Of a DNA stretch of 27,956 nt, positions 2-25,489 are shown piece by piece. Below the pieces are notes generated by a model that saw only the letters and a list, made by a program, of their open reading frames with translations, searched no databases and was not told the origin of the DNA. The position numbers were made by a program, and so were the translations under genes. Source of the DNA: a bacterium (GTDB lineage Bacteria > UBA9089 > CG2-30-40-21 > SBAY01); NCBI GenBank assembly GCA_040757115.1, contig JBFLYA010000027.1:1-27956 (forward strand), read 5' to 3'. How positions within the stretch are numbered: the first letter of the stretch is position 1; each line of letters begins with the position of its first letter.

Positions 2-268
2 AAGGAGGCATTTGAAATAGCCAATACAGCGGGGATGAGTGAAAAGGAGTTAGAAATTCAATATAAGCGGCACGATTTTATCCGAATGCAAAGAGGTGCG
101 ATAGAGTTTGCCTTAAAACAAGGGTTACAACAAGGAATACAACAGGGAATACAACAAGGTAAAATAGAAGTAGCGAAAAGTCTTTTGAAATTAGGGGAGA
201 AAGTTGAAAAAATATCCCAGGCAACGGGATTAACAATCGAGGAAATTAAGGGTATTAATTTATACTGA
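2..268 (+). CDS. Rpn-family (PD-(D/E)XK) recombination-promoting nuclease, C-terminal part
   Basis: The reading frame is open from base 2, so the gene starts upstream of the window and only about 88 C-terminal residues are seen. The tail reads KEAFEIANTAGMSEKELE, then a Gln/Gly repeat (QGLQQGIQQGIQQG), then a helix-turn-helix-like end (KLGEKVEKISQATGLTIEEI). This EAFEIA..MS.EE / EGxxEGxxEG / VAKxLL..G.....IS..TGLS.EEI layout is typical of the C-terminus of Rpn/YhgA-type PD-(D/E)XK proteins, which are often called transposases but act as DNA endonucleases. The catalytic domain lies outside the window. The ATG at 35 would give only a 77-residue fragment and is internal. These genes are often multicopy and horizontally moved. 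Confidence 0.7.
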   Translation, partial: KEAFEIANTAGMSEKELEIQYKRHDFIRMQRGAIEFALKQGLQQGIQQGIQQGKIEVAKSLLKLGEKVEKISQATGLTIEEIKGINLY

Positions 269-5559: not shown

Positions 5560-5585
5560 CAAATTAAGATAACATATAGTATACT
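5556..5585 (+). promoter_or_regulatory. Promoter of the HEAT-repeat gene, overlapping the kinase stop codon
   Basis: TTGACA (5556-5561) overlaps the TGA of the kinase gene. An 18-bp spacer leads to TATACT (5580-5585). Transcription would start near 5592, at the AGGAGG ribosome site, so the leader is only about 14 nt. Confidence 0.7.
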
Positions 5586-5605
5586 ATTTTCAGGAGGTGA
5601 ACAAA

Positions 5606-9256: not shown

Positions 9257-10291
9257 ATGAAAATCAATCCTGATAAAATATTACTCATTCAATTAAGGAG
9301 AATAGGTGATGTTTTGATGACTACGCCGGCGGTTAAATCACTTAAAAAACGATTTCAAGAGACAAAAATTACATTCTTGACCGAACCGCCATCTGATGAA
9401 ATCTTTCGTCACAATCCTTATGTAGATGAAATCTTACTCCATAATCGCCATTTTAAAGCAAAGGATTATCTGAAATTCATCCAAGAATTACGCAAAAGGC
9501 GATTTGATTTAGCCATAGATTTTTTTAGTAATCCTCGCAGTGCACAGATAGCCTTTTTTAGTGGGGCAACACATCGAATTGGATTTAACTTTCGTGGTCG
9601 AGCCTGGTTATATACCTCAAATGTAAATTTACCTCAGGATAAAAATCTTTATTCCGCCATTCATAAATTACATCTGTTAAAACCACTGGGAATAGATGTA
9701 GAAGATTGTCAAATTGAGTTTTTTTGTTCATCACAAGATTATGAATATGCCAGGGAACTAACAAGAAAGTTAGGAATTACGGCTAATGATTTCGTTATCG
9801 CCCTTTGTCCAGTTTCAAGGCGAGAATATAGAGTTTTGCCAGCAGAAAAATTTGCCTGGATTTCAGATAGTTTAATTAAAAAATACAACGCTAAAATTCT
9901 ATTTATGTGGGGTTATGATGAAAAGGGTTTTATTGATAAGGTAAAGTCCCGGATGAAGTATGCCGAGAGGACATTCGATGATTATGAAATCCCAACGATT
10001 AGTCAGGTTAGGGCTCTTTTTGAAAAAGTCAATCTTTACATCGGAAATGATAATGGCATCAGACATATTGCGATTGCCGCTGGAACTCCAACGGTAACTG
10101 CTTTTGGACAATCAAACCCTTTTAACTGGACACCACCTGAGAGTAAATTCCACCAGTTTGTAGATTATGACCCCGGTTGTAAAGAAAAGTGTAATGCTGC
10201 CAGATGTAAAGTCTATCGCTGTATCACTGAGATAAGTGAGATAGAGTATCTTAAAAAGATTGAAGAGTTGATACAACGCATTGGTCATTAG
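9257..10291 (+). CDS. Glycosyltransferase family 9 (heptosyltransferase-like)
   Basis: 344 residues from the ATG at 9257. N-terminal motif ILLIQLRRIGDVLMTTPAVK, then FDLAIDFFSNPRSAQIAFFS and THRIGFNFRGR, and the nucleotide-sugar site YIGNDNGIRHIAIAAGTPTV followed by AFGQSNPFNWTPP. This is the GT-B fold of the ADP-heptose:LPS heptosyltransferases (GT9), which act at the inner face of the cytoplasmic membrane on lipid A-core or similar acceptors. A Cys-rich tail (GCKEKCNAARCKVYRC) near the end is shared by some members. The DUF4254 gene downstream is a common partner of GT9 genes. The exact sugar and acceptor cannot be read from the sequence. The mRNA is predicted leaderless. Confidence 0.88.
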   Translation: MKINPDKILLIQLRRIGDVLMTTPAVKSLKKRFQETKITFLTEPPSDEIFRHNPYVDEILLHNRHFKAKDYLKFIQELRKRRFDLAIDFFSNPRSAQIAFFSGATHRIGFNFRGRAWLYTSNVNLPQDKNLYSAIHKLHLLKPLGIDVEDCQIEFFCSSQDYEYARELTRKLGITANDFVIALCPVSRREYRVLPAEKFAWISDSLIKKYNAKILFMWGYDEKGFIDKVKSRMKYAERTFDDYEIPTISQVRALFEKVNLYIGNDNGIRHIAIAAGTPTVTAFGQSNPFNWTPPESKFHQFVDYDPGCKEKCNAARCKVYRCITEISEIEYLKKIEELIQRIGH

Positions 10292-10316
10292 TTATTTGGC
10301 TAAACACTTACGATTT

Positions 10317-10363
10317 GAGGAAAAACGGGCATGAGTCTGCGACTCACAAAGGGGGATGAAAAT
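10317..10363 (+). repeat. Covarying hairpin element, copy 1
   Basis: Flanks GAGGAAAAACGGGCA and CACAAAGGGGGATGAAAAT. Stem TGAGTC/GACTCA with loop TGC (10332-10346). Confidence 0.85.
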
Positions 10364-10366
10364 TAA

Positions 10367-10622
10367 GGGACTCGGGACTCGGGGCTCGGGATTCGGGAAT
10401 AAAAGAATCCCCTAACCTCTTAATCTCCCGCCAGCGGGGAGATAAAAAAATAAAAATCTGTGTCCTCTGCGAAATCTGCGGATTATTTTCAGGGGAAACG
10501 GACATGAGCTAGGGCTCACAAAGGGCAATGAAAATGGGAGAAGGACAACCCCCTAACCCCCTTTATTAAGGGGGAATTGCTGAGAGTTTCTTTCTTCCCG
10601 AATCCCGAGTCCCGAGTCCCGA
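10367..10622. repeat. Inverted repeat with (A)CTCGGG arms enclosing element copy 2
   Basis: The left arm (10367-10399) is built of GGGACTC-type units ending GGGATTCGGGAA. The right arm (10595-10622) begins TTCCCGAATCCCGAG and is its complement apart from one extra unit on the left. The arms enclose about 195 bp. The left arm recurs without a partner at 17746-17778. Confidence 0.85.
10485..10535 (+). repeat. Covarying hairpin element, copy 2
   Basis: Outer pair ATTTTCA (10485-10491) / TGAAAAT (10529-10535). Inner stem TGAGC/GCTCA with loop TAGG (10505-10518). Flanks GGGGAAACGGACA and CACAAAGGGCA. Confidence 0.88.
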
Positions 10623-10641
10623 TTTTCAGGAGGAAGTAAAA

Positions 10642-11229
10642 ATGTTTGATGTAATGTTAATAAAGGAATTTTATACTGATTATCTGGTTAAATGGCATCA
10701 GGATGAGTATCTTGAGATTGAGAATTACGAAGAAATTTATCAGATTATTTATAACTTGCATTTGACTAATTATCGTTTGTGGCATCAAGAAGATATTGCT
10801 CGGAGAACAGATGTGGCTGATAGGGTTATTGCAGATGTAAAGCAGAAGATTGATAAGTTAAATCAGAATAGAAATGATACTATTGAAAAGATTGATGAAT
10901 ATCTATGCCAGATATTACACCCACAAAACCTTTCTTTGCCAATGAATTCAGAAACCCCGGGAAGTATTCTGGACAGAATGTCGATACTTTCGCTTAAGAT
11001 ATACCATATGACTGAGGAGACAAAAAGGATAGATGTAGATTCTGAACATATAAAAACCTGCCAGGAAAAAGTCCATATCTTGAAAGAACAATTCGATGAT
11101 TTAAAAAATTGCCTTGAGGTTTTGCTTGAGGAAATTTTTACTGGTAAGAAAAGACTTAAAGTCTATCGCCAATTTAAGATGTATAATGACCCACGGCTAA
11201 ATCCACAACTTCGAGAAATTACCCACTAA
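10642..11229 (+). CDS. DUF4254 family protein
   Basis: 195 residues, all helical, no signal peptide or membrane segment. Signature text LTNYRLWHQEDIARRTDVAD, KQKIDKLNQNRNDTIEKIDE and PGSILDRMSILSLKIYHM matches DUF4254, a family of unknown biochemical role that is usually encoded beside GT9 or other glycosyltransferase genes. That fits the gene upstream and suggests a role in envelope glycan assembly. AGGAGG lies 8 nt before the ATG and comes from the end of a spacer repeat (TTTTCAGGAGG). The 350-bp repeat-filled gap suggests it may not be strictly co-transcribed with the glycosyltransferase gene. Confidence 0.85.
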   Translation: MFDVMLIKEFYTDYLVKWHQDEYLEIENYEEIYQIIYNLHLTNYRLWHQEDIARRTDVADRVIADVKQKIDKLNQNRNDTIEKIDEYLCQILHPQNLSLPMNSETPGSILDRMSILSLKIYHMTEETKRIDVDSEHIKTCQEKVHILKEQFDDLKNCLEVLLEEIFTGKKRLKVYRQFKMYNDPRLNPQLREITH

Positions 11230-11256
11230 TCTTCTCCTTTCGGCTAATCAAAAAGT

Positions 11257-11465
11257 GTAACCGTTCAGGTAATCCTTTACCGCAGAGACGCAGAGAAACA
11301 GAGAAGACATAGAAATAAAGTAACTATTCAGCCACTGATTAACACGGATTAGCACGGATAAAAAAATAAAATCAGTGTTTCATCTGTGTCCATCTGTGGC
11401 TGAATAGTTATCAATAAATTTTAATTTTTTCTCTGCGTCTCTGTGTCTCTGCGGTGAACGGTTAC
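11257..11465. repeat. Three-level nested palindrome
   Basis: Outer arms GTAACCGTTCA (11257-11267) / TGAACGGTTAC (11455-11465), exact. Middle arms from CCGCAGAGACGCAGAGA (11280) / ending CTCTGTGTCTCTGCGG (11454), imperfect. Inner arms TAACTATTCAGCCAC (11321-11335) / GTGGCTGAATAGTTA (11396-11410), exact. Right halves recur alone at 12068, 18576 and 25490. Confidence 0.9.
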
Positions 11466-11721
11466 GAGGAAAATATCTTTTTTTCGTGTTTTTCGCGTTT
11501 TTCGGTGTTTATAGCAGTTATTATTCAAAACTTTACTTAGAATTAAATACTCGTAACTACTCGTAGTGAATTAACAAGTTATGCGTGAACCATTACTACA
11601 CTATGTCAAATTAGTGCTATAACTCTCTATATTTTTAGACAATTATGTCCATTTGGCTTGCCTTCCCCTATTTCTTATGATAAAATGGGAAAAAACAGAA
11701 TGTGAAAATTCTACCTCATCC

Positions 11722-11963
11722 TTCATTTAATGTCCCATAGGGACAATATATCGGTAGAAATAAATATCATACAAATAATGTCCCATAGGGACAATATATC
11801 GGTAAATGGTTTTCCATAAATTTTCTACCAATATATCGTTCCTACGGAACTGATTGATTTATCTATCTATTCCTACCGATATTATGATCCTAACGGAACG
11901 ATTATTCTCATGCCTTATTTATGGGTATTATCTTATGTAAACTTCCAGTTAATAACCGCTATA
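11722..11963 (+). repeat. ~242-bp multi-palindrome element, copy L
   Basis: Contains two TGTCCCATAGGGACA palindromes each followed by ATATATCGGTA, then two reverse-oriented modules (CCAATATATCGTTCC TACGGAAC and TACCGATATTATGATCC TAACGGAAC), ending in AATAACCGCTATA. The reverse complement is at 24958-25200 with only a few differences. No open reading frame, so it is non-coding and possibly a miniature mobile element. Confidence 0.9.
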
Positions 11964-12067
11964 AAAAGGCTTAAAAACAGTTAGTCGAAAGTAAGTATTA
12001 AAAGATTAATAAACAACGAAAGACCCGAAATGCACAAAAAAAGGAAATTTCTGTCTCTGGTGAATAG

Positions 12068-12115
12068 ATTTTAATTTTTTCTCTGCGTCTCTGTGTCTCT
12101 GCGGTGAACAGTTAC
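12068..12115 (+). repeat. Half copy of the CTCTGCGTCTCTG / GTGAACGGTTAC repeat
   Basis: Nearly the same as the right arm region 11418-11465 (ttaattttttctctgcgtct then gcggtgaacagttac), with one change in the terminal motif and no left arm. Confidence 0.85.
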
Positions 12116-12513
12116 CAAAAAGTCCAATAATTGAACAAAAATTTATCAGTAGTTTAAAATTTAATCATAGTTGTTTAAAAGTTAGAAAAAAGGTTTGAAG
12201 TGAGTTTTTAATTTACCGAAAGAGCATCTTTCTATAACTTTAGTTGTATCAATATGTTAGATATGAAGTAGTGGTCAGGGGCTTTAGTTAGCATAAGATT
12301 TGCTCCTCTATATTATTGTAAAATCCCTTTCAATCGTCAACCCTATCGTAAAAGGGAAATGGGGCAAAATAAAGATGTTAAATACCCTAAATAAGGTGGT
12401 CAAATAGAAAAATTGACACAGATTTTTGCCCCAGGACTAATTAAAATTGGTAACTGGTTAAATGGTAAGTAATTACCATTCACCAGTTATCATTACCAAA
12501 TTAAAGGAGGTGA

Positions 12514-12527
12514 AAAAGGAGGTCCTT
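12514..12527 (+). repeat. Left half of an inverted repeat flanking the 227-residue gene
   Basis: AAAAGGAGGTCCTT here is the exact complement of AAGGACCTCCTTTT at 13266-13279, after the stop codon. The pair brackets the gene at 12557-13240. The left half also resembles a ribosome site, but the proximal AAAGGAGG (~12540) is the likely one. Confidence 0.8.
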
Positions 12528-12556
12528 CTTAAAAAAATTAAAGGAGGAAAGAAAAA

Positions 12557-13240
12557 ATGAAAAGATTAATTATTGGGTTAGTAAGTATTTTAGGACTGCT
12601 ATGGGCAACCAGTGCCATAGCCGATGTGGAAGACAAAACAGTTCAGGTGAAATTAGTGGTTCTCCAGATTATCGACTTAGAGGTAACAGCACCAGATACG
12701 GTTGTCCCCACAGCAGAAGATTATGCAGTGGATGCGGCACATGATCAGAAATATAGCTGGGTGGCAGATTGTGACCCATCACCAGATTCGATGGGATTTG
12801 CAGACAGAGCAGATGCGCTACAAGTAACGATATTCACAAATGCGAAAAGTGGAGCGACAGTTTATTTCTACGGTAATCCCAATCCTGTTCATAACGAATC
12901 TCTACAGAATAAAGATGTTTATTTATCCGTGAACCGCGAGAAAACCTATGTGTTAATGAACGCGCCAGACGGAACACCAGCCGCAGAGGATGATTTAGAT
13001 GTAACTGAGGGTATAGATGGTGCATGGGCAAATGCTAATACAGCAATTGATGGGACTCACAAGTGCAAGTGGATACAAACCCACAATGAAGCTAAAGAGT
13101 TTTTTGGAGTTACAGAAGCTACGGAAGCAGCAAGACTTTGGTCCCTCCAATTAGGAATTGCCTGTTTATCCGAATATACGGAAAGTACAGACGCTGGCTA
13201 CACGATGGACCTAACATTTATCTTGATGCCTCGTGTTTAA
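12557..13240 (+). CDS. Exported protein of unknown function
   Basis: 227 residues with a strong signal peptide (MKRLIIGLVSILGLLWATSAIA, cleavage after SAIA). The mature part looks rich in beta strands (VQVKLVVLQIIDLEVTAPDT, ALQVTIFTNAKSGATVYFYG, TMDLTFILMPRV) with three Cys, and begins and ends with strand-like sequence, as in small surface beta-sandwich or coat proteins. I do not recognise the family. Codon use is a little richer in G and C than in neighbouring genes. AAAGGAGG precedes the ATG. The gene is bracketed by an inverted repeat and followed by an intrinsic terminator, so it is a single-gene unit. A structural or surface-layer-associated role is a guess. Confidence 0.75.
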   Translation: MKRLIIGLVSILGLLWATSAIADVEDKTVQVKLVVLQIIDLEVTAPDTVVPTAEDYAVDAAHDQKYSWVADCDPSPDSMGFADRADALQVTIFTNAKSGATVYFYGNPNPVHNESLQNKDVYLSVNREKTYVLMNAPDGTPAAEDDLDVTEGIDGAWANANTAIDGTHKCKWIQTHNEAKEFFGVTEATEAARLWSLQLGIACLSEYTESTDAGYTMDLTFILMPRV

Positions 13241-13288
13241 TTTAACTCAACTTCTCAACATAAAAAAGGACCTCCTTTTCATAAAAAT

Positions 13289-13328
13289 AAAGAGGGAGAA
13301 AAAATATTCTCCCTCTTTTTATTTTTTT
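13289..13328 (+). terminator. Intrinsic terminator of the exported-protein gene
   Basis: Stem AAAGAGGGAGAA (13289-13300) / TTCTCCCTCTTT (13307-13318), a 6-nt loop, then a run of T (TTATTTTTTT). Confidence 0.92.
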
Positions 13329-13396
13329 CCCCATATAATCTCCATATTTCCTTCAGACACACGGAAAAAGGTTACCTGCTTTTATTACCCCCCAGT

Positions 13397-13445
13397 CAGG
13401 AAAAACGGTCATCTCCACGACGTGGACACAAAGAACAATGAAAAT
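13397..13445 (+). repeat. Covarying hairpin element, copy 3
   Basis: Flanks CAGGAAAAACGGTCAT and CACAAAGAACAATGAAAAT. The stem is fully different from the other copies, TCCAC/GTGGA (13414-13426), but still paired. The outer ATTTTCA is lost (CAGTCA). Confidence 0.82.
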
Positions 13446-13555
13446 AGCACGCTGATGACGCGGAGGTCGCGGATATTTCGCGGATAAAAAATATATTATA
13501 GAAAAATCCGCTAAAATCCGTTAAATCCGCGTTATCCGTGTGCTATTTTAACATT

Positions 13556-13608
13556 ATTTTTCAGGAGAACGCTCATGAACCGTAGGTTCACAACAGGAGA
13601 ATGAAAAT
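13556..13608 (+). repeat. Covarying hairpin element, copy 4
   Basis: Outer pair ATTTTTCA / TGAAAAT (13602-13608). Inner stem TGAACC/GGTTCA with loop GTA (13576-13590). 5' flank GGAGAACGCTCA. Confidence 0.85.
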
Positions 13609-13735
13609 AGGGGAAAAACAGGGTGGAGGAAAGATTTTCTCTCTACTCTCTACTCTCTACTTTCTACTCTCTACTTCCTATTTTCATGAGAATTCCCTAT
13701 TTCACTAACGCATTACCTTCACCCTATTTTTATTA

Positions 13736-13764
13736 TTGACAAACTGTAAAGTAAATGGTATAGT
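13736..13764 (+). promoter_or_regulatory. Promoter of the DHS-like gene, leaderless
   Basis: TTGACA (13736-13741), a 17-bp spacer and TATAGT (13759-13764). Only six bases (TTAATT) separate the -10 box from the ATG at 13771, so transcription should start at the start codon itself. Confidence 0.8.
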
Positions 13765-13770
13765 TTAATT

Positions 13771-14730
13771 ATGCCAAATAATTATGAACAGATTGATTTA
13801 AGTAAAATAAAGACATATCCAATAAAAAACCGTAAAAATCTGGTCAAACTAAAAGATTTTGTTAGACTTCTACCCAGAGATGCTGCTCTTAAAGAGTTTA
13901 TTGATTCCCTGCCCGATATTTTAAAAGGGGCTGATTTGAAGGAATTAATAAAGTCTATCTGCCAGGCATATCACCAAAAGAGACCTATTTTATGGGCTTG
14001 TGGAGCCCATGTAATAAAATGTGGGTTGTCACCCCTGATTATTGAACTAATGAAAAAAGGTTTAGTAAATTGTCTTTCGCTAAATGGTGCCGGGATTATT
14101 CATGATTTTGAGATTGCCTTGATAGGTGAAACATCAGAGGATGTCTCAAAAAGTCTTTTAGATGGTTCCTTTGGTATGGCAAAGGAAACCGGTGAACTAA
14201 TTAATGAGGCAATTATTGATGGGGCAAGACATAATCTTGGGATTGGCAGGGCAGTTGGTAAGATGATTTCAGAACAAAAACTTAAATATCGAGAATATAG
14301 TATTTTATATCAGGGGTTTGAATTAAATATCCCTATTACAGTCCATGTGGCTATTGGCACGGATATTATTCATCAACATCCAAATGCCTCAGGTGAGGCA
14401 ATTGGTAAAGGCAGTATGATTGATTTTCACATTTTTACTAACCAGGTGGCTAATTTAGAGGGTGGGGTGTTTATAAATATAGGTTCGGCGGTAATCATCC
14501 CGGAGGTATTTTTAAAGGCATTAACGATTGTTCGAAATTTAAACTACACGGTGGAAGATTTTGTCACTGCTAACTTTGATATGATGATACAATATCGACC
14601 AATGTCCAATATCGTTAAAAGACCAACGCTAAAAGCCGGAAAAGGATATTCATTTATTGGTCATCATGAAATAATGATGCCACTTTTGGCTTATGGGATA
14701 TTGGCGGAAATTCAGAGCAACGAAGGTTGA
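13771..14730 (+). CDS. Deoxyhypusine-synthase-like protein
   Basis: 319 residues, Rossmann-like, no signal peptide. Text such as LNGAGIIHDFEIALIGETSEDV, DGSFGMAKETGELINEA, AIGTDIIHQHPNASGEAIGK, LEGGVFINIGSAVIIPEVFL and TANFDMMIQYRPMSNIVKRP matches my recollection of bacterial proteins assigned to the deoxyhypusine synthase (DS) fold. The catalytic SWGK-type lysine segment of eukaryotic enzymes is not seen, so the hypusine reaction cannot be assumed; these bacterial homologues may use another amine or another substrate. The gene sits 79 bp before aroQ and about 2.3 kb before efp. A modification role on EF-P is only a hypothesis. Leaderless start. Confidence 0.55.
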   Translation: MPNNYEQIDLSKIKTYPIKNRKNLVKLKDFVRLLPRDAALKEFIDSLPDILKGADLKELIKSICQAYHQKRPILWACGAHVIKCGLSPLIIELMKKGLVNCLSLNGAGIIHDFEIALIGETSEDVSKSLLDGSFGMAKETGELINEAIIDGARHNLGIGRAVGKMISEQKLKYREYSILYQGFELNIPITVHVAIGTDIIHQHPNASGEAIGKGSMIDFHIFTNQVANLEGGVFINIGSAVIIPEVFLKALTIVRNLNYTVEDFVTANFDMMIQYRPMSNIVKRPTLKAGKGYSFIGHHEIMMPLLAYGILAEIQSNEG

Positions 14731-14770
14731 TATTAACTGCGTTTACCCTGTGTCTATGCATAAAAATTAA

Positions 14771-14799
14771 TTGCATTTTATTTAGTAATATGTTATAAT
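14771..14799 (+). promoter_or_regulatory. Promoter of aroQ, near-leaderless
   Basis: TTGCAT (14771-14776), a 17-bp spacer and an extended -10 TGTTATAAT (box 14794-14799). Start of transcription ~14806, three bases before the ATG. A GAGGT at 14802-14806 would be mostly outside the transcript. Confidence 0.75.
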
Positions 14800-14808
14800 G
14801 TGAGGTAA

Positions 14809-15246
14809 ATGAATAAAATATTGGTTATCCACGGTCCTAATCTAAATTTATTAGGGAAAAGAGAACCCGAAGTCTATGGGAATATAACCCTTGCGGAGAT
14901 TAATCAAAGATTAAAAGAATTAGCCAATGAAAAGCAAATAGACCTGAAAATCATTCAGAGTAATCATGAAGGTGAGATTGTAGATGAGATTGGCAAGGCA
15001 GACGCTAAATTTATTATAATTAATCCCGGGGCATTTACGCATACAAGTATTGCTATTCGTGATGCCATCGCCGCCACAGGTATTCCAACGATAGAGGTGC
15101 ATCTATCTAATATTTATAAAAGAGAGGAATTCAGGCATAAATCCCTGATTGCACCTGTTTGTATTGGACAAATTAGTGGTTTTGGAGTGACTGGTTATCT
15201 GTTAGCCTTCCAGTCTGCTATTGAATTGATGAAAAGTGGAGGGTAG
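14809..15246 (+). CDS. aroQ: Type II 3-dehydroquinate dehydratase
   Basis: 145 residues, normal for the dodecameric type II enzyme of the shikimate pathway, which removes water from 3-dehydroquinate. Motifs: [17 protein letters not shown] (catalytic Tyr in EVYG and loop Arg), [28 protein letters not shown], and [17 protein letters not shown] (catalytic His), then [13 protein letters not shown]. It leads the cluster aroQ, DUF5618, pepP-like, efp, all on the plus strand. aroQ next to an Xaa-Pro peptidase and efp is a known conserved arrangement (for example yqhS-yqhT-efp in Bacillus). Confidence 0.97.
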
Positions 15247-15248
15247 AT

Positions 15249-15680
15249 GTGAAGAAAGAAAAAGAATATGATAAGAAATCTTTAGCCTCAGATTATTTTA
15301 ATGAGGCAGTTAGATTCTATAAGAATGGAAAAGAGATATTAAAAAATGTCCCGATTGTATATAAAAGTTACGAGGATTCAAAACCCGTAGCAGAGGCAGC
15401 CGGAATATGTTATCTTAGTATGCTGAAAGCTTTAGATGGGTATCTTATTCTAAAAGGGATAGATAAGGCTAATTTACCTACTTCTTATCAGGGCTATTGG
15501 CAAACATTATCTAAAGATATGGTTCATAATGGTAAGGTAAAATCTGCCATAAAAATTGCTTACGAGAACCTTCATATCTTTGGTTATTATCGAGGTGGAA
15601 CTGGAGTTTCAATGATAAAAGAAGGTTTTCAGTGTGCTAAATTTGTGATTGAACATCTATCTCATAAAAAAATTACCTAA
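15249..15680 (+). CDS. DUF5618 / HEPN-like helical protein
   Basis: 143 residues from a GTG start; GGAGG (15239-15243) is well placed and an ATG two bases earlier is followed at once by a stop. It begins 2 nt after the aroQ stop, so it is coupled to it. All helical: YFNEAVRFYKNGKEILKN, AAGICYLSMLKALDGYLILK and ENLHIFGYYRGGTGVSMIKEG. The ALDGYL / LH..GYYRGG.......GF pattern matches DUF5618 proteins, which look like HEPN-type four-helix bundles. No RxxxxH HEPN nuclease motif is seen. Function unknown. It is an insertion in the usual aroQ-pepP-efp order. Confidence 0.72.
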   Translation: MKKEKEYDKKSLASDYFNEAVRFYKNGKEILKNVPIVYKSYEDSKPVAEAAGICYLSMLKALDGYLILKGIDKANLPTSYQGYWQTLSKDMVHNGKVKSAIKIAYENLHIFGYYRGGTGVSMIKEGFQCAKFVIEHLSHKKIT

Positions 15681-15681
15681 C

Positions 15682-16749
15682 ATGGATAGAATCAACAAAT
15701 TACAAACGATATTATCAAAAAAGAAATTAGATGGATTATTGGTATCTAATATCACCAATGTTCAGTATCTAACAGGATTTACAGGCTCTTCGGCTGATTT
15801 GTTGGTTACTTCCCAAAAGATATACTTTATTACGGATTCAAGATACCTTGAACAGGCACAAAAAGAAGTCCATCAGGGTGTTGAGTTCATTAAAGAAGAA
15901 AAAGGGTTAGTTAAGACCTTAAAAAAACTCCTGCCAAAACAAAAACTTAAAAATTTAGGTTTAGAAACTGATTACCTGACTTATACTCAATATCAAAAAC
16001 TCGTTAAAGAATTAACATTTGTAGAATTAGTTCCAACCGAAGGATTGGTTTATAAGTTAAGATTAATCAAAGAGAAAGATGAAATACAGAAGATAAAATA
16101 TGCCTGTCAAATAGCAGAAGATGCCTTTAAAGTCCTATTACCGTTTATCAATGAGGGTATGAGTGAGCATGATGTTGCCATTGAGTTAGAGTATTTAATC
16201 AAGAAAAAAGGCGGCGAGATTGCCTTTGAGACAATTGTTGCTTCAGGCTGGCGTTCAAGTCTGCCGCATGGAAAACCATCTCATAAAAAATTAAAGATGG
16301 GTGATTTTGTTATATTTGATTTTGGGGCGAGATTTAAAGGTTATAATTGCGATTTAACTCGCACTTTAATCCTTGGTAAGCCATCGCCAAGACAAAAATT
16401 AGTTTATCAATCTGTCAAAAACGCACAAGAAAAGGTATTAGAGAATTTAAGAGCCGGGGTAGAATTTGCTGAGGTAGATAAAATTGCCCGTGAAAAAATT
16501 GCCGAAAACGGTTTAAAACGATTCTTTGGACATAACTTAGGACATGGTATAGGCATTGAGGTTCACGAAATACCTCATATATCTTCTTCAAATAAAACCT
16601 TAATGAAATCAGGTATGGTTGTAACCATTGAACCGGGTATCTACATTCCAAACTTCGGTGGAGTAAGAATCGAAGATACAGTGCTGATAACTGAGAATGG
16701 GCATAAGGTATTAAGCGATAATGTGTCTAAAGAATTGATTGCATTATGA
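15682..16749 (+). CDS. Xaa-Pro aminopeptidase (M24B family)
   Basis: 355 residues from the ATG at 15682, one base after the DUF5618 stop; an in-frame TTG at 15649 is not needed. There is no clear Shine-Dalgarno, so translation is probably coupled. N-terminal creatinase-like domain (~1-120), then the pita-bread peptidase domain. The five metal ligands of M24 are visible: Asp in FVIFDFGARF, Asp in YNCDLTRTL, His in LGHGIGIEVHE, Glu in VTIEPGIYI and Glu in GVRIEDTVLI. It cleaves N-terminal residues before proline. Its place between aroQ and efp is conserved in many bacteria; EF-P helps ribosomes through proline runs, which gives a loose proline theme. Confidence 0.92.
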   Translation: MDRINKLQTILSKKKLDGLLVSNITNVQYLTGFTGSSADLLVTSQKIYFITDSRYLEQAQKEVHQGVEFIKEEKGLVKTLKKLLPKQKLKNLGLETDYLTYTQYQKLVKELTFVELVPTEGLVYKLRLIKEKDEIQKIKYACQIAEDAFKVLLPFINEGMSEHDVAIELEYLIKKKGGEIAFETIVASGWRSSLPHGKPSHKKLKMGDFVIFDFGARFKGYNCDLTRTLILGKPSPRQKLVYQSVKNAQEKVLENLRAGVEFAEVDKIAREKIAENGLKRFFGHNLGHGIGIEVHEIPHISSSNKTLMKSGMVVTIEPGIYIPNFGGVRIEDTVLITENGHKVLSDNVSKELIAL

Positions 16750-17071
16750 ACTGATAACTAATTACCATTCACCAGTTACCAATAGGGTTCTGCAAAATAG
16801 GATTTGGGGGAGACAATAAATAAATATTAAATATTAAATATCAAAATGCAAAATTACAAATCAAATTTCAAGTTGATAGTTGATAGTTTATAGTTGATAA
16901 GTTGAAGGACTATAGACTATAAACTATAAACCATAAACTATAAACGAGTTTTGCATTTTGCTCTTTGGAGGAAATTGATAAAAATAGAGGTTTTAAATAC
17001 CCGCTTAAAAACTACAGTTTCTTAGTTTTGCAGGACTCTACAGTTACCAATTTTAAGGAGGGTTAAAATAA
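16750..17071. other. Spacer between peptidase gene and efp
   Basis: Holds CATTCACCAGTTACC (also near 12478), an imperfect pair GGTTCTGCAAAAT (~16786) / TTTTGCAGGACTCTACAGTTAC (~17025), an AGTTTATAGT-type palindrome (16872-16946), the phrase gcattttgctctttggagg (also ~25400), and the AAGGAGGG site of efp. No promoter is obvious. Confidence 0.7.
16872..16946. repeat. Palindromic array of (GA/AC)TATAAACTA words
   Basis: Left arm of GTTGATAGT/TTTATAGTTGATA words, centre TTGAAGGACTATAGACTAT, right arm of ACTATAAACCATAAACTA words. The same design and centre occur between pheS and pheT at 21894-22058. Confidence 0.88.
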
Positions 17072-17635
17072 ATGATTGGTGCAAATGATTTAAGACCAGG
17101 AATGACGATTGAATTGAATGGAGAGATTTTCTCCTGCACAGAATTCCAGCATATCAAGCCGGGTAAAGGAGGGGCATTTGTCCGATTAAAATTAAAAAAT
17201 TTTAGTACCGGCGCGGTTATAGATAAAACCGTTAGACCAGAGGAAAAATTCCCATTAGTCAGAATATCCCGCAAACCTATGCAATATCTTTATCAGGAGG
17301 GAGGTAATTACTACTTTATGGATACCGAATCTTATGAACAATTCGGGCTCTCAAAAGATATACTAAGTAGTAATGTCAATTACCTGAAAGAGAATATGGA
17401 GGTAACGGTTTTATTCCATGATGAGACGATAATCGGCATAGAATTACCAGTAACGATAGAACTAAAGGTTATCACCACTGAACCAGGTTTTAAAGGAAAT
17501 ACCGTTTCAGGTGCAACTAAACAGGCAGAATTGGAAACAGGATTAAAGGTCCAGGTGCCTTTATTTGTAGAGGAAGGTGAAATCCTTAAAATCGATACTC
17601 GCACTGGAGAATATATAGAGAGGGTAAGAGGTTAG
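17072..17635 (+). CDS. efp: Translation elongation factor P
   Basis: 187 residues, the normal length, with three OB/KOW-like domains. EF-P binds ribosomes stalled on consecutive prolines and restores peptide-bond formation. The tip loop reads QHIKPGKGGAFVRLKL; the lysine that is modified in other bacteria is Lys32 (PGKG). The end GFKGNTVSGATKQAELETGL and QVPLFVEEGEILKIDTRTGEYIERV is typical. AAGGAGGG lies 9 nt before the ATG. No epmA, epmB or ymfI-type modification gene is in the window, so the state of Lys32 is open. It ends the aroQ cluster and is followed by a long repeat field. Confidence 0.97.
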   Translation: MIGANDLRPGMTIELNGEIFSCTEFQHIKPGKGGAFVRLKLKNFSTGAVIDKTVRPEEKFPLVRISRKPMQYLYQEGGNYYFMDTESYEQFGLSKDILSSNVNYLKENMEVTVLFHDETIIGIELPVTIELKVITTEPGFKGNTVSGATKQAELETGLKVQVPLFVEEGEILKIDTRTGEYIERVRG

Positions 17636-17690
17636 AAGTAAAGTAAGTATTTAGCCATCTAAAGTGAAACAACAGGCAGTGGTTGTTAGG

Positions 17691-17740
17691 TTTCAGGAGA
17701 AACGGTCATGAGCCTGCGGCACACAAAGGGGGATGAAAAT
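17691..17740 (+). repeat. Covarying hairpin element, copy 5
   Basis: 5' flank TTTCAGGAGAAACGGTCA, 3' flank CACAAAGGGGGATGAAAAT. Stem TGAGCC/GGCACA (17709-17723) with one A-A mismatch. The only copy with an imperfect stem. Continues into a near copy of 10364-10480. Confidence 0.82.
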
Positions 17741-17860
17741 TAAGGGACTCGGGACTCGGGGCTCGGGATTCGGGAATAAAAGAATCCCCTAACCTTTTAA
17801 TCTCCCGCCAGTGGGGAGATAAAAAAATAAAAATCTGTGTAATCTGCGAAATCTGCGGAT

Positions 17861-17913
17861 ATTTTTAGGAGAAACCAGGTATGAACCTGCGGTTCACAAA
17901 CGAGGATGAAAAT
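17861..17913 (+). repeat. Covarying hairpin element, copy 6
   Basis: 5' end ATTTTTAGGAGAAACCAGG, 3' flank CACAAACGAGGATGAAAAT. Stem TGAACC/GGTTCA with loop TGC (17882-17896). Confidence 0.83.
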
Positions 17914-17981
17914 TGAGCATAGAGATTAGAGATTAGCAAGAGTGCAGGTTCTAATTCACTAATTCTCTAATCTCTAATTAA

Positions 17982-18165
17982 CTATTTTCAGGAGAAACGG
18001 ACATGAGCCAAGGCTCACAAAGGGCAATGAAAATGGGAGAAGGACAACCCCCTAACCCCCTTTATTAAGGGGGAATATGTGTTCTAAACCAGAGGATACG
18101 AGTCTGTGGATACTATACTAATTCGCTAATCTCTAATTCACTAATTCGCTATTTTCAGGGGAAAT
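17982..18165 (+). repeat. Direct duplication, first copy
   Basis: 184 bp that by eye is identical to 18259-18442. Contains element copy 7, a CCCCCTAACCCCC / TTAAGGGGG partial palindrome, and a tail of ctaattcgctaat words ending ATTTTCAGGGGAAAT. The first ~90 bp also match 10482-10575. Confidence 0.9.
17984..18034 (+). repeat. Covarying hairpin element, copy 7
   Basis: Outer pair ATTTTCA (17984-17990) / TGAAAAT (18028-18034). Stem TGAGC/GCTCA (or TGAGCC/GGCTCA) at 18004-18017, loop CAAG. Confidence 0.88.
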
Positions 18166-18258
18166 AGTGGTAGGAGATAGAAGGTGGGAGGTAAGGAGAT
18201 AAGCGGGAGGAGTGATGTTTTCTTTACTTTCTACTTTCTACTCTCTACTTTCTACTTC

Positions 18259-18442
18259 CTATTTTCAGGAGAAACGGACATGAGCCAAGGCTCACAAAGG
18301 GCAATGAAAATGGGAGAAGGACAACCCCCTAACCCCCTTTATTAAGGGGGAATATGTGTTCTAAACCAGAGGATACGAGTCTGTGGATACTATACTAATT
18401 CGCTAATCTCTAATTCACTAATTCGCTATTTTCAGGGGAAAT
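18259..18442 (+). repeat. Direct duplication, second copy
   Basis: Second copy of 17982-18165, 277 bp downstream of the first; the 93-bp gap carries ctctactttctac words. Confidence 0.9.
18261..18311 (+). repeat. Covarying hairpin element, copy 8
   Basis: Same sequence as copy 7, as part of the 184-bp duplication. Outer pair 18261-18267 / 18305-18311. Confidence 0.88.
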
Positions 18443-18575
18443 GTATAACTGAAAGGTAATGAGTCTTGCGAAGGACTAAAATTTCCCATTTTTCATTTCC
18501 TATTTTACATTTTACATTTATTTTTCCTTTGCGTCTCTGCGATGAATTAGTCTAATCGCACAGGTGGGGATTTTT

Positions 18576-18614
18576 CCGTGTTTCATCCGTGTCCATCTGT
18601 GGCTGAATAGTTAC
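18576..18614 (+). repeat. Half copy of the GTGGCTGAATAGTTA repeat
   Basis: Starts CCGTGTTTCATCCGTGTCCA and ends GTGGCTGAATAGTTAC, like 11376-11410, but has no left arm nearby. Confidence 0.8.
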
Positions 18615-18751
18615 GATTTAGTTTATAATTCTTCGTGCCCTTCGTGTTCTTCGTGGTTTTAAAAGATGTGAGAAAGGTTAATCTAACCGCACAGGTGGAA
18701 AAAATTACCTTTGCATCCTTTGCGTCCCCAAAAATTTATAAAAATTTTCTA

Positions 18752-18781
18752 TTGACTTTTGGGAGAAAAGTATGATATACT
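18752..18781 (+). promoter_or_regulatory. Promoter of the structured RNA candidate
   Basis: TTGACT (18752-18757), an 18-bp spacer and TATACT (18776-18781). Expected start ~18788. No ribosome site or open frame follows. Confidence 0.7.
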
Positions 18782-18787
18782 ATAATT

Positions 18788-19009
18788 AGAATGAAACACA
18801 GGTGTGAGTCCCTACCGTGTTTGTGATGAAATGGTTTTTTTTTGAGCTAGCACCTTTTTATAGGGAGCTTTACAACTCTGAGTGTGGCATGCAGACTGCC
18901 TTTTAAAAAGGTGTAAGTAGAAGCATCAAAGCACTTAGGTGAGCACCCACTTACACAAAAGGGTTCAAAAATTCCATTTCACACGGCATTATGGTGGGGA
19001 CTTTTTTTG
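18788..19009 (+). ncRNA. Structured non-coding RNA candidate, possibly 6S RNA (ssrS)
   Basis: About 220 nt from a good promoter to a T-run (19002-19008). The ends pair: AGTCCC (18807-18812) with GGGACT (18997-19002), then CCGTGT (18815-18820) with ACACGG (18981-18986), then TGAAATGG (18827-18834) with CCATTTCA (18974-18981), then TTTTTGA with TCAAAAA. Inside are two branches: CACCTTTTTA (18851-18860) with TAAAAAGGTG (18904-18913), and GTGTAAGT (18911-18918) with ACTTACAC (18949-18956), which overlap by three bases and may be alternatives. No open frame. A long closing stem broken by an open centre, the length and the promoter/terminator recall 6S RNA, and GGTGAGCA also occurs in E. coli 6S, but I cannot confirm the family. 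It is unlike the surrounding repeats and appears once. Confidence 0.55.
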
Positions 19010-19060
19010 TGGGGACAAATAGGGTCAAACCAATACTGTTTGGAATGATTTTTGGCAGGA

Positions 19061-19119
19061 TTCAAATCAGGACAGGTGAAACTTCCATGCCCCTGTAGGG
19101 CACAAATGACGATGAAAAT
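19061..19119 (+). repeat. Covarying hairpin element, copy 9
   Basis: A divergent copy: AATCAGGACAGGTGAAAC leader, stem TGCCC/GGGCA with loop CTGTA (19088-19102), then CACAAATGACGATGAAAAT. Confidence 0.75.
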
Positions 19120-19273: not shown

Positions 19274-19294
19274 CATAACCTATTTTCAGGAGAA

Positions 19295-19723
19295 TTACTT
19301 TGTCACCTTATTCCTGAGTGGACTTGGTCCCAGTTCTTGTATTTTATTTGTCATTTCTCGGGCGACTTCAGCGAATTTTGGTCCCATTGAGGCACTCATA
19401 TTGAACATTTCAAGGCGATTACCACCAATACCGGTTTCATCCAGTAGTTTTTTTGCTCTGGCAACACGGCGTTTTGCCTTGATATTGCCATCAATGAAAT
19501 GGCAGTTTCCTTCCAGGCAACCCGCCACATAGACACCATCTGCCCCATCTTCAAATGCCTTCAACAGATACAAAATATCTACCTTGCCAGTGCAGGGCAA
19601 TTTGATAATTTTAACATTAGCTGGGTAATTAAGTCTCATTGACCCAGCCAGGTCTGCCGCCCCGTAAGCACAATAATGACAGCAAAAAGCTACAATCTCG
19701 GGCTCAAAATTGTTATTAGTCAT
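19295..19723 (-). CDS. MvhD-like hydrogenase iron-sulfur subunit, orphan
   Basis: 142 residues. Cysteines at 14, 15, 18 (FCCHYCAYGAADLAG), 44 (LPCTGK), 69 and 74 (VAGCLEGNCHF) give the pattern of the delta subunit of methyl-viologen-reducing hydrogenase (MvhD/FlpD), which holds a [2Fe-2S] cluster and passes electrons to heterodisulfide-reductase-like HdrA. All expected Cys are present, so it should bind its cluster. AAGGAG is well placed before the ATG. It follows pheT by 31 bp on the same strand, but no hdrA, hdrBC, mvhA or mvhG is nearby, so its partners must be elsewhere. In anaerobes such proteins serve electron bifurcation; here that is inference. Confidence 0.88.
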   Translation of the reverse strand: MTNNNFEPEIVAFCCHYCAYGAADLAGSMRLNYPANVKIIKLPCTGKVDILYLLKAFEDGADGVYVAGCLEGNCHFIDGNIKAKRRVARAKKLLDETGIGGNRLEMFNMSASMGPKFAEVAREMTNKIQELGPSPLRNKVTK

Positions 19724-23565: not shown

Positions 23566-23860
23566 TATTCTTGCACCTCAGTCTGAAATCACTGAACAGT
23601 ATAACACTTATTAATCGAAATTTGACCCAGATATGGCTATGAAATTCCAAATTCCATTTAGTGAATTAGTGAATTAAGCGAATTAGCGAATTAGTAAAAT
23701 CTAATCTCTAATTCACTAATCTCTAATTCGCTTTTTGGTATGTGGAATTTGGTGCTTGGGATTTGGGATTTTTTACTTATCCACCCTGAGTAAAATTTTG
23801 ACTAATAACTGCTATAGGCTACTGATTAGTCTTCACGGTTCACTCTTCACTGCTAAATGC

Positions 23861-24957: not shown

Positions 24958-25200
24958 TATAGCGGTTATTAACTGGAAGTTTACATAGGATAATACCCCA
25001 TAAATAAGGCATGAGAATAATCGTTCCGTTAGGAACATAATATCGGTAGGAATAGATAGACAAATCAATCAGTTCCGTAGGAACGATATATTGGTAGAAA
25101 ATTTATGGAAAGCCATTTACCGATATATTGTCCCTATGGGACATTATTTGTATGATATTTATTTCTACCGATATATTGTCCCTATGGGACATTAAATGAA
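24958..25200 (-). repeat. ~242-bp multi-palindrome element, copy R (inverted)
   Basis: Reverse complement of 11722-11963 with a handful of differences. One difference restores symmetry: GTTCCTAACGGAAC here against GATCCTAACGGAAC in copy L. Confidence 0.9.
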
Positions 25201-25489
25201 GCAAAACTCAAAACTACAACTAAAAACTTCTCCATCAGTCGCAATAAATCTCAATGAATCTATTAGTTTTAAGGTTTTGAGATGAGGTTTTGAGTTTTGA
25301 CATTTGAGTTTTGAGTTGATATTGTCCCATCTGATGGACACGGCTGAACGCTTACGAGATAATTTTACATTTTGATATGTAATTTTTATATTTGCTTTTT
25401 GCATTTTGCTCTTTGGAGGAAATCCCTTTTGGACACCAAATCTGCATAGATTTCATTATTTAGAGTTATTTTCAGACACCACCGATTTT

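Follow-up and report, generated by a model that had tools for sequence, protein, structure and literature searches.

The DNA analyzed here, a 27,956-nt stretch of a bacterial draft genome (contig JBFLYA010000027.1 of assembly GCA_040757115.1; hereafter the window), carries nine copies of a hairpin repeat in its intergenic regions. An earlier note, made from the sequence alone, had described nine copies with conserved flanks surrounding a short hairpin whose arms differ between copies. Searching with a covariance model built from 17 distinct copies, the window copies being partly among them, we recovered all nine within a few bases of where they had been placed, all on the + strand, with E values from 2e-6 to 9e-20. 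Units 1 and 2 lie between a glycosyltransferase gene ending at 10291 and a gene starting at 10642, units 3 and 4 between 13240 and 13771, and units 5 to 9, the third array, between 17635 and 19295. As described below, these repeats are parts of larger units with a cargo, right ends at gene starts, an arrangement in arrays, a sense-strand bias, and presence/absence variation, all of which the note had missed.

The repeat seen first is only the initial ~52 nt, or core, of a longer unit. A unit opens with a left end, RNGAAAC-nnn-CA (often RTGAAAC), followed by an inner stem of 4-7 bp that we call P2 and then by CAAA-nnnnn-ATGAAAAT. Beyond ATGAAAAT lies a variable and often palindromic cargo, bounded by ATGAAAAT and ATTTTCA, and the unit closes with a right end in which ATTTTCAG is joined to RNGAAA, or (A/G)TGAAA in distant genomes. 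A strict right end is found within 220 nt of 75 of the 99 distant cores, versus 2.7% of random windows. Units in distant genomes are mostly 58-220 nt long, with one outlier, and the distances to the right end there reveal no autonomous long version or transposase-bearing long unit, while minimal units of ~60 nt (L078 and L187) are almost without cargo. An outer stem formed by ATTTTCA and TGAAAAT, also proposed in the earlier note, was misassigned: no pair in it changes on both sides, the upstream ATTTTCA closes the preceding unit as its right end, and just 14 of the 99 distant copies have ATTTTCA upstream. About 18 distinct Bacteroidota-type units contain a guide segment, CATGnnnGTTCC-ATnnG, complementary to the left end (GAAACnnnCATG) and, in its second half, to the right end. 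Guide and right end covary in these copies (ATCCG/CGGAT, ATCTG/CAGAT, ACACG/CGTGT, ATCAG/CTGAT, and ATACG/CGTAT), whereas guide and left flank match mainly at the common ATG. This covariation makes the right end a part of the element, both of whose ends can be aligned by a single segment.

Unrelated phyla share cargo palindromes, among them CCCCTAACCCCTCTTTGCC, GTCATTCCCGC, and CACCCTGAGC, that are placed immediately downstream of ATGAAAAT (e.g., L075, L105, and L168). A coding reading of the core (ATG AGY CTG CGA CTC ACA AAG...) was rejected because its frame is broken between subtypes of 46 and 47 nt, and a conserved peptide was ruled out since the left ATG terminates after four codons in 29 of 51 distant copies.

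The P2 hairpin is under selection, as the earlier note had argued from stem pairing that is kept while the sequence changes. Among 17 distinct sequences from the host genus, four of the six pairs of the inner stem change on both sides, and stem covariation, which was judged against shuffled and slid controls, is 0.216 compared to 0.094 in shuffles. In other phyla (114 distinct cores), all four Watson-Crick pairs occur at every variable position, with 91/114, 103/114, 90/112, and 60/79 paired sequences at these positions versus shuffled means of 41, 37, 31, and 23, tallies that count sequences and not independent events. The copy with one mismatch, which had been noticed before, is the one at 17691 (A.A). 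Whether RNA or single-stranded DNA folds had been left open. A sense-strand RNA stem is expected to favor G.U strongly. Instead, the sense-strand mismatches in 95 distinct hairpins are 19 A.C versus 16 G.T and, in the host genus, where many copies are related, 46 versus 15. Since A.C is as frequent as G.T, these counts favor DNA, or the opposite strand, over a sense-strand RNA stem. This strand inference is not conclusive, however, because an extra stem of Bacteroidota copies (P1) contains tandem G.A pairs, a feature that suits folding of the sense strand.

How widespread are these units? Genomes are drafts whose contigs are broken by the units, and ~2.5 Mb of the host and a sister species of the same genus was examined as stretches. 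The covariance-model search that had been suggested found at least 150 copies in the 4.3-Mb host genome and at least 96 in the sister species. A loose exact core pattern matched 115 and 93 times, respectively, while the reversed pattern never matched. Many cores of both species lie 70-160 bp from contig ends, which indicates that assemblies break at arrays and that copy numbers are underestimates. A scan of the GTDB collection with GAAACnnnCATG-(8..14)-CACAAAnnnnnATGAAAAT, for which our own estimate from base counts is ~0.05 chance matches, detected at least 119 stretches in at least eight phyla, labeled as Bacteroidota, Nitrospirota, Nitrospinota, Deltaproteobacteria/Syntrophaceae, Campylobacterales, Chlamydiae, Planctomycetota, Cloacimonadota, Neomarinimicrobiota, and a cultured firmicute. 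Some drafts are rich in cores, with 51 copies in G068, 30 in G077, 16 in G069, and 69 in G072. Cultured carriers include Sunxiuqinia dokdonensis and Anaerosolibacter carboniphilus, each of which has several copies. Presence is nevertheless patchy, with cores in 5 of 19 genomes of the host's own phylum and, among 395 genomes drawn from another phylum, in the center genome only. Phages showed no match to array DNA, and only two viral contigs have a core. The family is real, as first suspected, and Rfam does not cover it, no Rfam family matching the cores at gathering score or at a permissive E of up to 3-5. Full-text search, with subscription literature mostly outside its reach, found no paper containing the sequences, its matches being unrelated. 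No common gene family stands beside the cores, although no search was aimed at an IntI-type integrase.

The units meet genes in a characteristic way. With open reading frame (ORF) starts called by simple rules, the RTG begins an ORF no shorter than 200 codons for 32 of 83 terminal right ends in distant genomes, compared to 11% of all RTGAAA; examples are L086, L138, L154, and L106, the last of which uses GTG. Right ends of the host genus read AGGAGAAA or a variant of it, which supplies the Shine-Dalgarno (SD) sequence in many copies, and a gene starts 4-24 nt downstream of 33 of the 71 host and sister right ends, compared to 13% for other GGRGAA. Orientation is biased as well: in the host genus, 80 cores are in sense with both neighboring genes and 8 are against both, while in other genomes the downstream gene is in sense in 66 cases and opposed in 13.

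Although genes of the two species are ~97% identical, their arrays differ. At two pairs of matching sites (L221 and L254, L237 and L348), both species have two units but of different kinds, and L315 has one unit where the matching site L241 has five. L242 and L301 differ by exactly one A-type unit, and an 11-bp direct repeat, TTTCAGGAGAA, has two copies in the filled site but a single one in the empty site. Since this empty site is itself a right end, the comparison proves unit-wise gain or loss but not a first insertion. Units are also nested in another element, whose termini are inverted repeats like TAATGGGTCAGT...ACTGACCCATTA (L289:19290-19523 vs. window 23601-23830; L242/L301); what one species has at these places, the other lacks or has in a different form. 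In an array interval of the sister species (L249:10600-11720, minus strand), a small aspartic protease-like ORF with a DTGAT motif lies between right ends and is absent at the host's matching site; it is possibly a gene-bearing cassette.

Our reading of the anatomy, covariation, arrays, gene-start junctions, sense bias, and unit-sized species difference, to which we give a probability of roughly 0.6, is that the repeats are a patchy, multi-phylum, and apparently undescribed family of nonautonomous mobile hairpin DNA cassettes of ~58-220 bp. Mobility of the units is well supported; the enzyme and the chemistry are what we infer. Movement probably proceeds through single-stranded DNA by an enzyme acting in trans, which would recognize the P2 hairpin on the single strand and insert the unit at RNGAAA-like sites. 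Pairing of ATGAAAAT with ATTTTCA (P3) could draw the two unit ends together, gain and loss of whole units would produce head-to-tail arrays, and insertions at gene starts may persist because translation signals are rebuilt. If true, such an element inserts exactly at the ribosome start in many environmental bacteria while leaving the gene unbroken, can give a new leader to any gene with a start like RTGAAA or AGGAGAAA, and could account for why the intergenic DNA of carrier genomes is a mosaic that turns over rapidly. It also provides a defined search pattern and raises the question of which enzyme moves a 60-bp hairpin across phyla. A more ambitious version, which we put forward only tentatively, is that this is an unrecognized multi-phylum system in which cassettes enter at exact positions between translation signals and restore these signals, a guide pairs with the element's own right end, and the mover is an enzyme or host process not known for such mobilization.

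Several points weigh against mobile cassettes. The L242/L301 difference could have arisen when recombination between the 11-bp repeats deleted a unit. About half of the terminal right ends are not at a recognizable gene start, and no virgin SD or start-codon site from before an insertion was seen. The left ATGAAAC does not clearly look like an old start codon, judging from SD-like sequences, which are found upstream of 17 of 51 left ATGAAAC versus 17 of 24 right ends. Finally, searches for Y1 transposases, reverse transcriptases, and tyrosine recombinases identified no enzyme for the task.

Known elements offer possible movers. The cassettes resemble IS200/IS605 in their hairpins at the ends, lack of long inverted repeats, short target motif, and guide-end pairing (PMC6006769), and REP/REPIN sequences in being short, intergenic, high-copy hairpins with no transposase of their own and presumed recognition as single-stranded DNA (PMC3733652, PMC6006769). 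They might therefore belong to this world and be moved as single strands by a Y1 (HUH) transposase in trans, since the order target-hairpin-cargo-hairpin-target with internal pairing to the ends follows the logic known for IS608/ISDra2 (PMC6006769), and Y1 genes are present in 15 of 20 core-bearing genomes. However, cores lie near just 0-1 of 36 Y1 genes examined in these genomes, and G068, G077, and G069, all drafts, yielded no Y1 match, so that Y1 as the mover was set aside and this explanation appears unlikely. Moreover, while the hallmarks of REP repeats are GTAG or CGTC feet and linkage to RAYT (PMC3733652, PMC6006769), the foot of the cassette hairpin is GAAAC-nnn-CA in all exact copies, not GTAG/GTGG or CGTC. 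In contrast to REPINs, which are inverted pairs, cassettes are head-to-tail on one strand; unlike REP, they have cargo, a second end, and a gene-start junction; and unlike IS200/IS605, they contain no tnpA/tnpB and have RNGAAA at both ends. Reverse transcriptase, the mover expected for a retroelement, was rejected because it is missing from several core-rich drafts, no RVT_1 being found in 6 of 13 core-rich draft genomes (e.g., G072 and G073). Integrons come to mind because they too have head-to-tail cassettes, a folded site with conserved ends and a variable stem, and contents that vary at fixed sites (PMC2727003), so that a tyrosine recombinase, perhaps the host Xer, might recombine the folded hairpins. 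The unit-wise difference between species and the A.C mismatches, which are at least as frequent as G.T and fit a folded bottom strand, agree with this, as does the presence of tyrosine recombinases in 13 of 13 core-rich genomes (only two in G072). These enzymes are also found in 14 of 14 control genomes, which makes their presence uninformative, and as a universal enzyme a tyrosine recombinase was discarded as the mover. The cassette ends are RNGAAAC and ATTTTCAG rather than the attC boxes RYYYAAC and GTTRRRY (R'/R''), the cargo is non-coding with almost no ORFs, and arrays sit at many loci rather than on one platform, which leaves an integron-like origin quite unlikely.

There are also explanations without a dedicated mover. 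A cis-acting 5' leader RNA, whose hairpin and pairing over the start region would regulate translation of the downstream gene and whose copies would have multiplied by duplication, would explain the sense-strand bias, the right ends at start codons or SDs, the pairing of the Bacteroidota guide with the start-codon region, and the tandem G.A pairs of P1. We nevertheless find it very unlikely, in view of the A.C mismatches, the lack of a gene family common to the neighbors of the copies and of an Rfam family, the arrays of up to five units, and a copy number that exceeds 100 in one genome but is zero in most relatives. It is also very doubtful that the units are a fossil repeat that only homologous recombination and slippage during replication have reshuffled. 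Such a history would fit the direct repeats that border units, the scar-like core deletions (18151 and 18428), and identical tandem units, but not structure and ends that are conserved across phyla despite patchy presence, guide/right-end covariation, or dispersal over many host contigs. Among other repeats, miniature inverted-repeat transposable elements of the DDE type differ in that cassette ends are only TGAAA/TTTCA and the flanking repeat is RNGAAA (11 bp in one array). Pneumococcal BOX, RUP, and SPRITE repeats are likewise interspersed, modular in make-up, and endowed with secondary structure; they have been judged parasitic, and some are cotranscribed (PMC3049150). They are, by description, set apart from the cassettes, being largely confined to a few streptococci and having no reported start-codon fusion (PMC3049150).

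The units of the window are listed below. In unit 2, the AGGAGG of the right end is the SD of the gene with an ATG at 10642, and the right end of unit 3, ATTTTTCAG, lies upstream of the unit 4 core. Where cores are deleted, at 18151-18165 and 18428-18442, the sequence resembles a scar between GAAA repeats. The last right end of the third array adjoins the 3' end of a minus-strand gene (19295-19723).

Table 1. Cassette features in the window
Feature	Position	Strand	Basis
Unit 1 core, stem TGAGTC/GACTCA, left end GAGGAAAAAC	10312..10363	+	covariance model, sequence
Unit 1 cargo, block TTAAGGGACTCGGGACTCGGG...	10364..10484	+	sequence; block recurs after core at 17691
Unit 2 core, A type; opening bases ATTTTCAG are unit 1 right end	10485..10535	+	covariance model, exact pattern
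Unit 2 right end, ATTTTCAG + GAGG (ATTTTCAGGAGG)	10622..10633	+	sequence
Unit 3 core, stem TCCAC/GTGGA, lengthened across one mismatch	13392..13445	+	covariance model
Unit 4 core, B-like, stem TGAACC/GGTTCA	13557..13608	+	covariance model
Unit 4 right end, ATTTTCATGAGA	13680..13691	+	sequence
Unit 5 core, stem TGAGCC/GGCACA, one A.A mismatch	17689..17740	+	covariance model
Unit 6 core, stem TGAACC/GGTTCA	17861..17913	+	covariance model
Unit 7 core, A type	17984..18034	+	covariance model, exact pattern
Unit 7 cargo (GGGAGAAGGACAACCCCCTAACCCCCTTTATTAAGGGGG...) and right end ATTTTCAG at 18151-18158	18035..18158	+	sequence
Core-less unit GGGGAAATAGTGGTAGGAG..., B-type cargo fused straight to left end	18159..18260	+	sequence, compared with intact B units
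Unit 8 core, A type, identical to unit 7 core	18261..18311	+	covariance model
Unit 8 right end, then second deleted core (GGGGAAATGTATAAC)	18428..18435	+	sequence
Unit 9 core, stem TGCCC/GGGCA	19068..19119	+	covariance model
Unit 9 right end, ATTTTCAAGGGAA	19159..19171	+	sequence
Last right end of third array, ATTTTCAGGAGA	19282..19293	+	sequence

Elsewhere in the window, ATTTTCAGGAGGTGAACAAAATG at 5580-5600, where the gene at 5597 starts, is a right end without a core and probably a remnant unit. Nested palindromes occupy much of the intergenic DNA, including a large hairpin at 11265-11470 with ends GTAACCGTTCAGG / GAACGGTTAC and arms of the CTCTGCGTCTCTGTG type. Positions 11721-11925 and 24997-25201 are 205-nt inverted copies, 99% complementary (TTACCGATATATTGTCCCTATGGGACATTA...), of a separate dispersed palindrome family. 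Finally, a 6S RNA gene (RF00013, 79 bits) is located between units 8 and 9, at 18806-19004 on the + strand.

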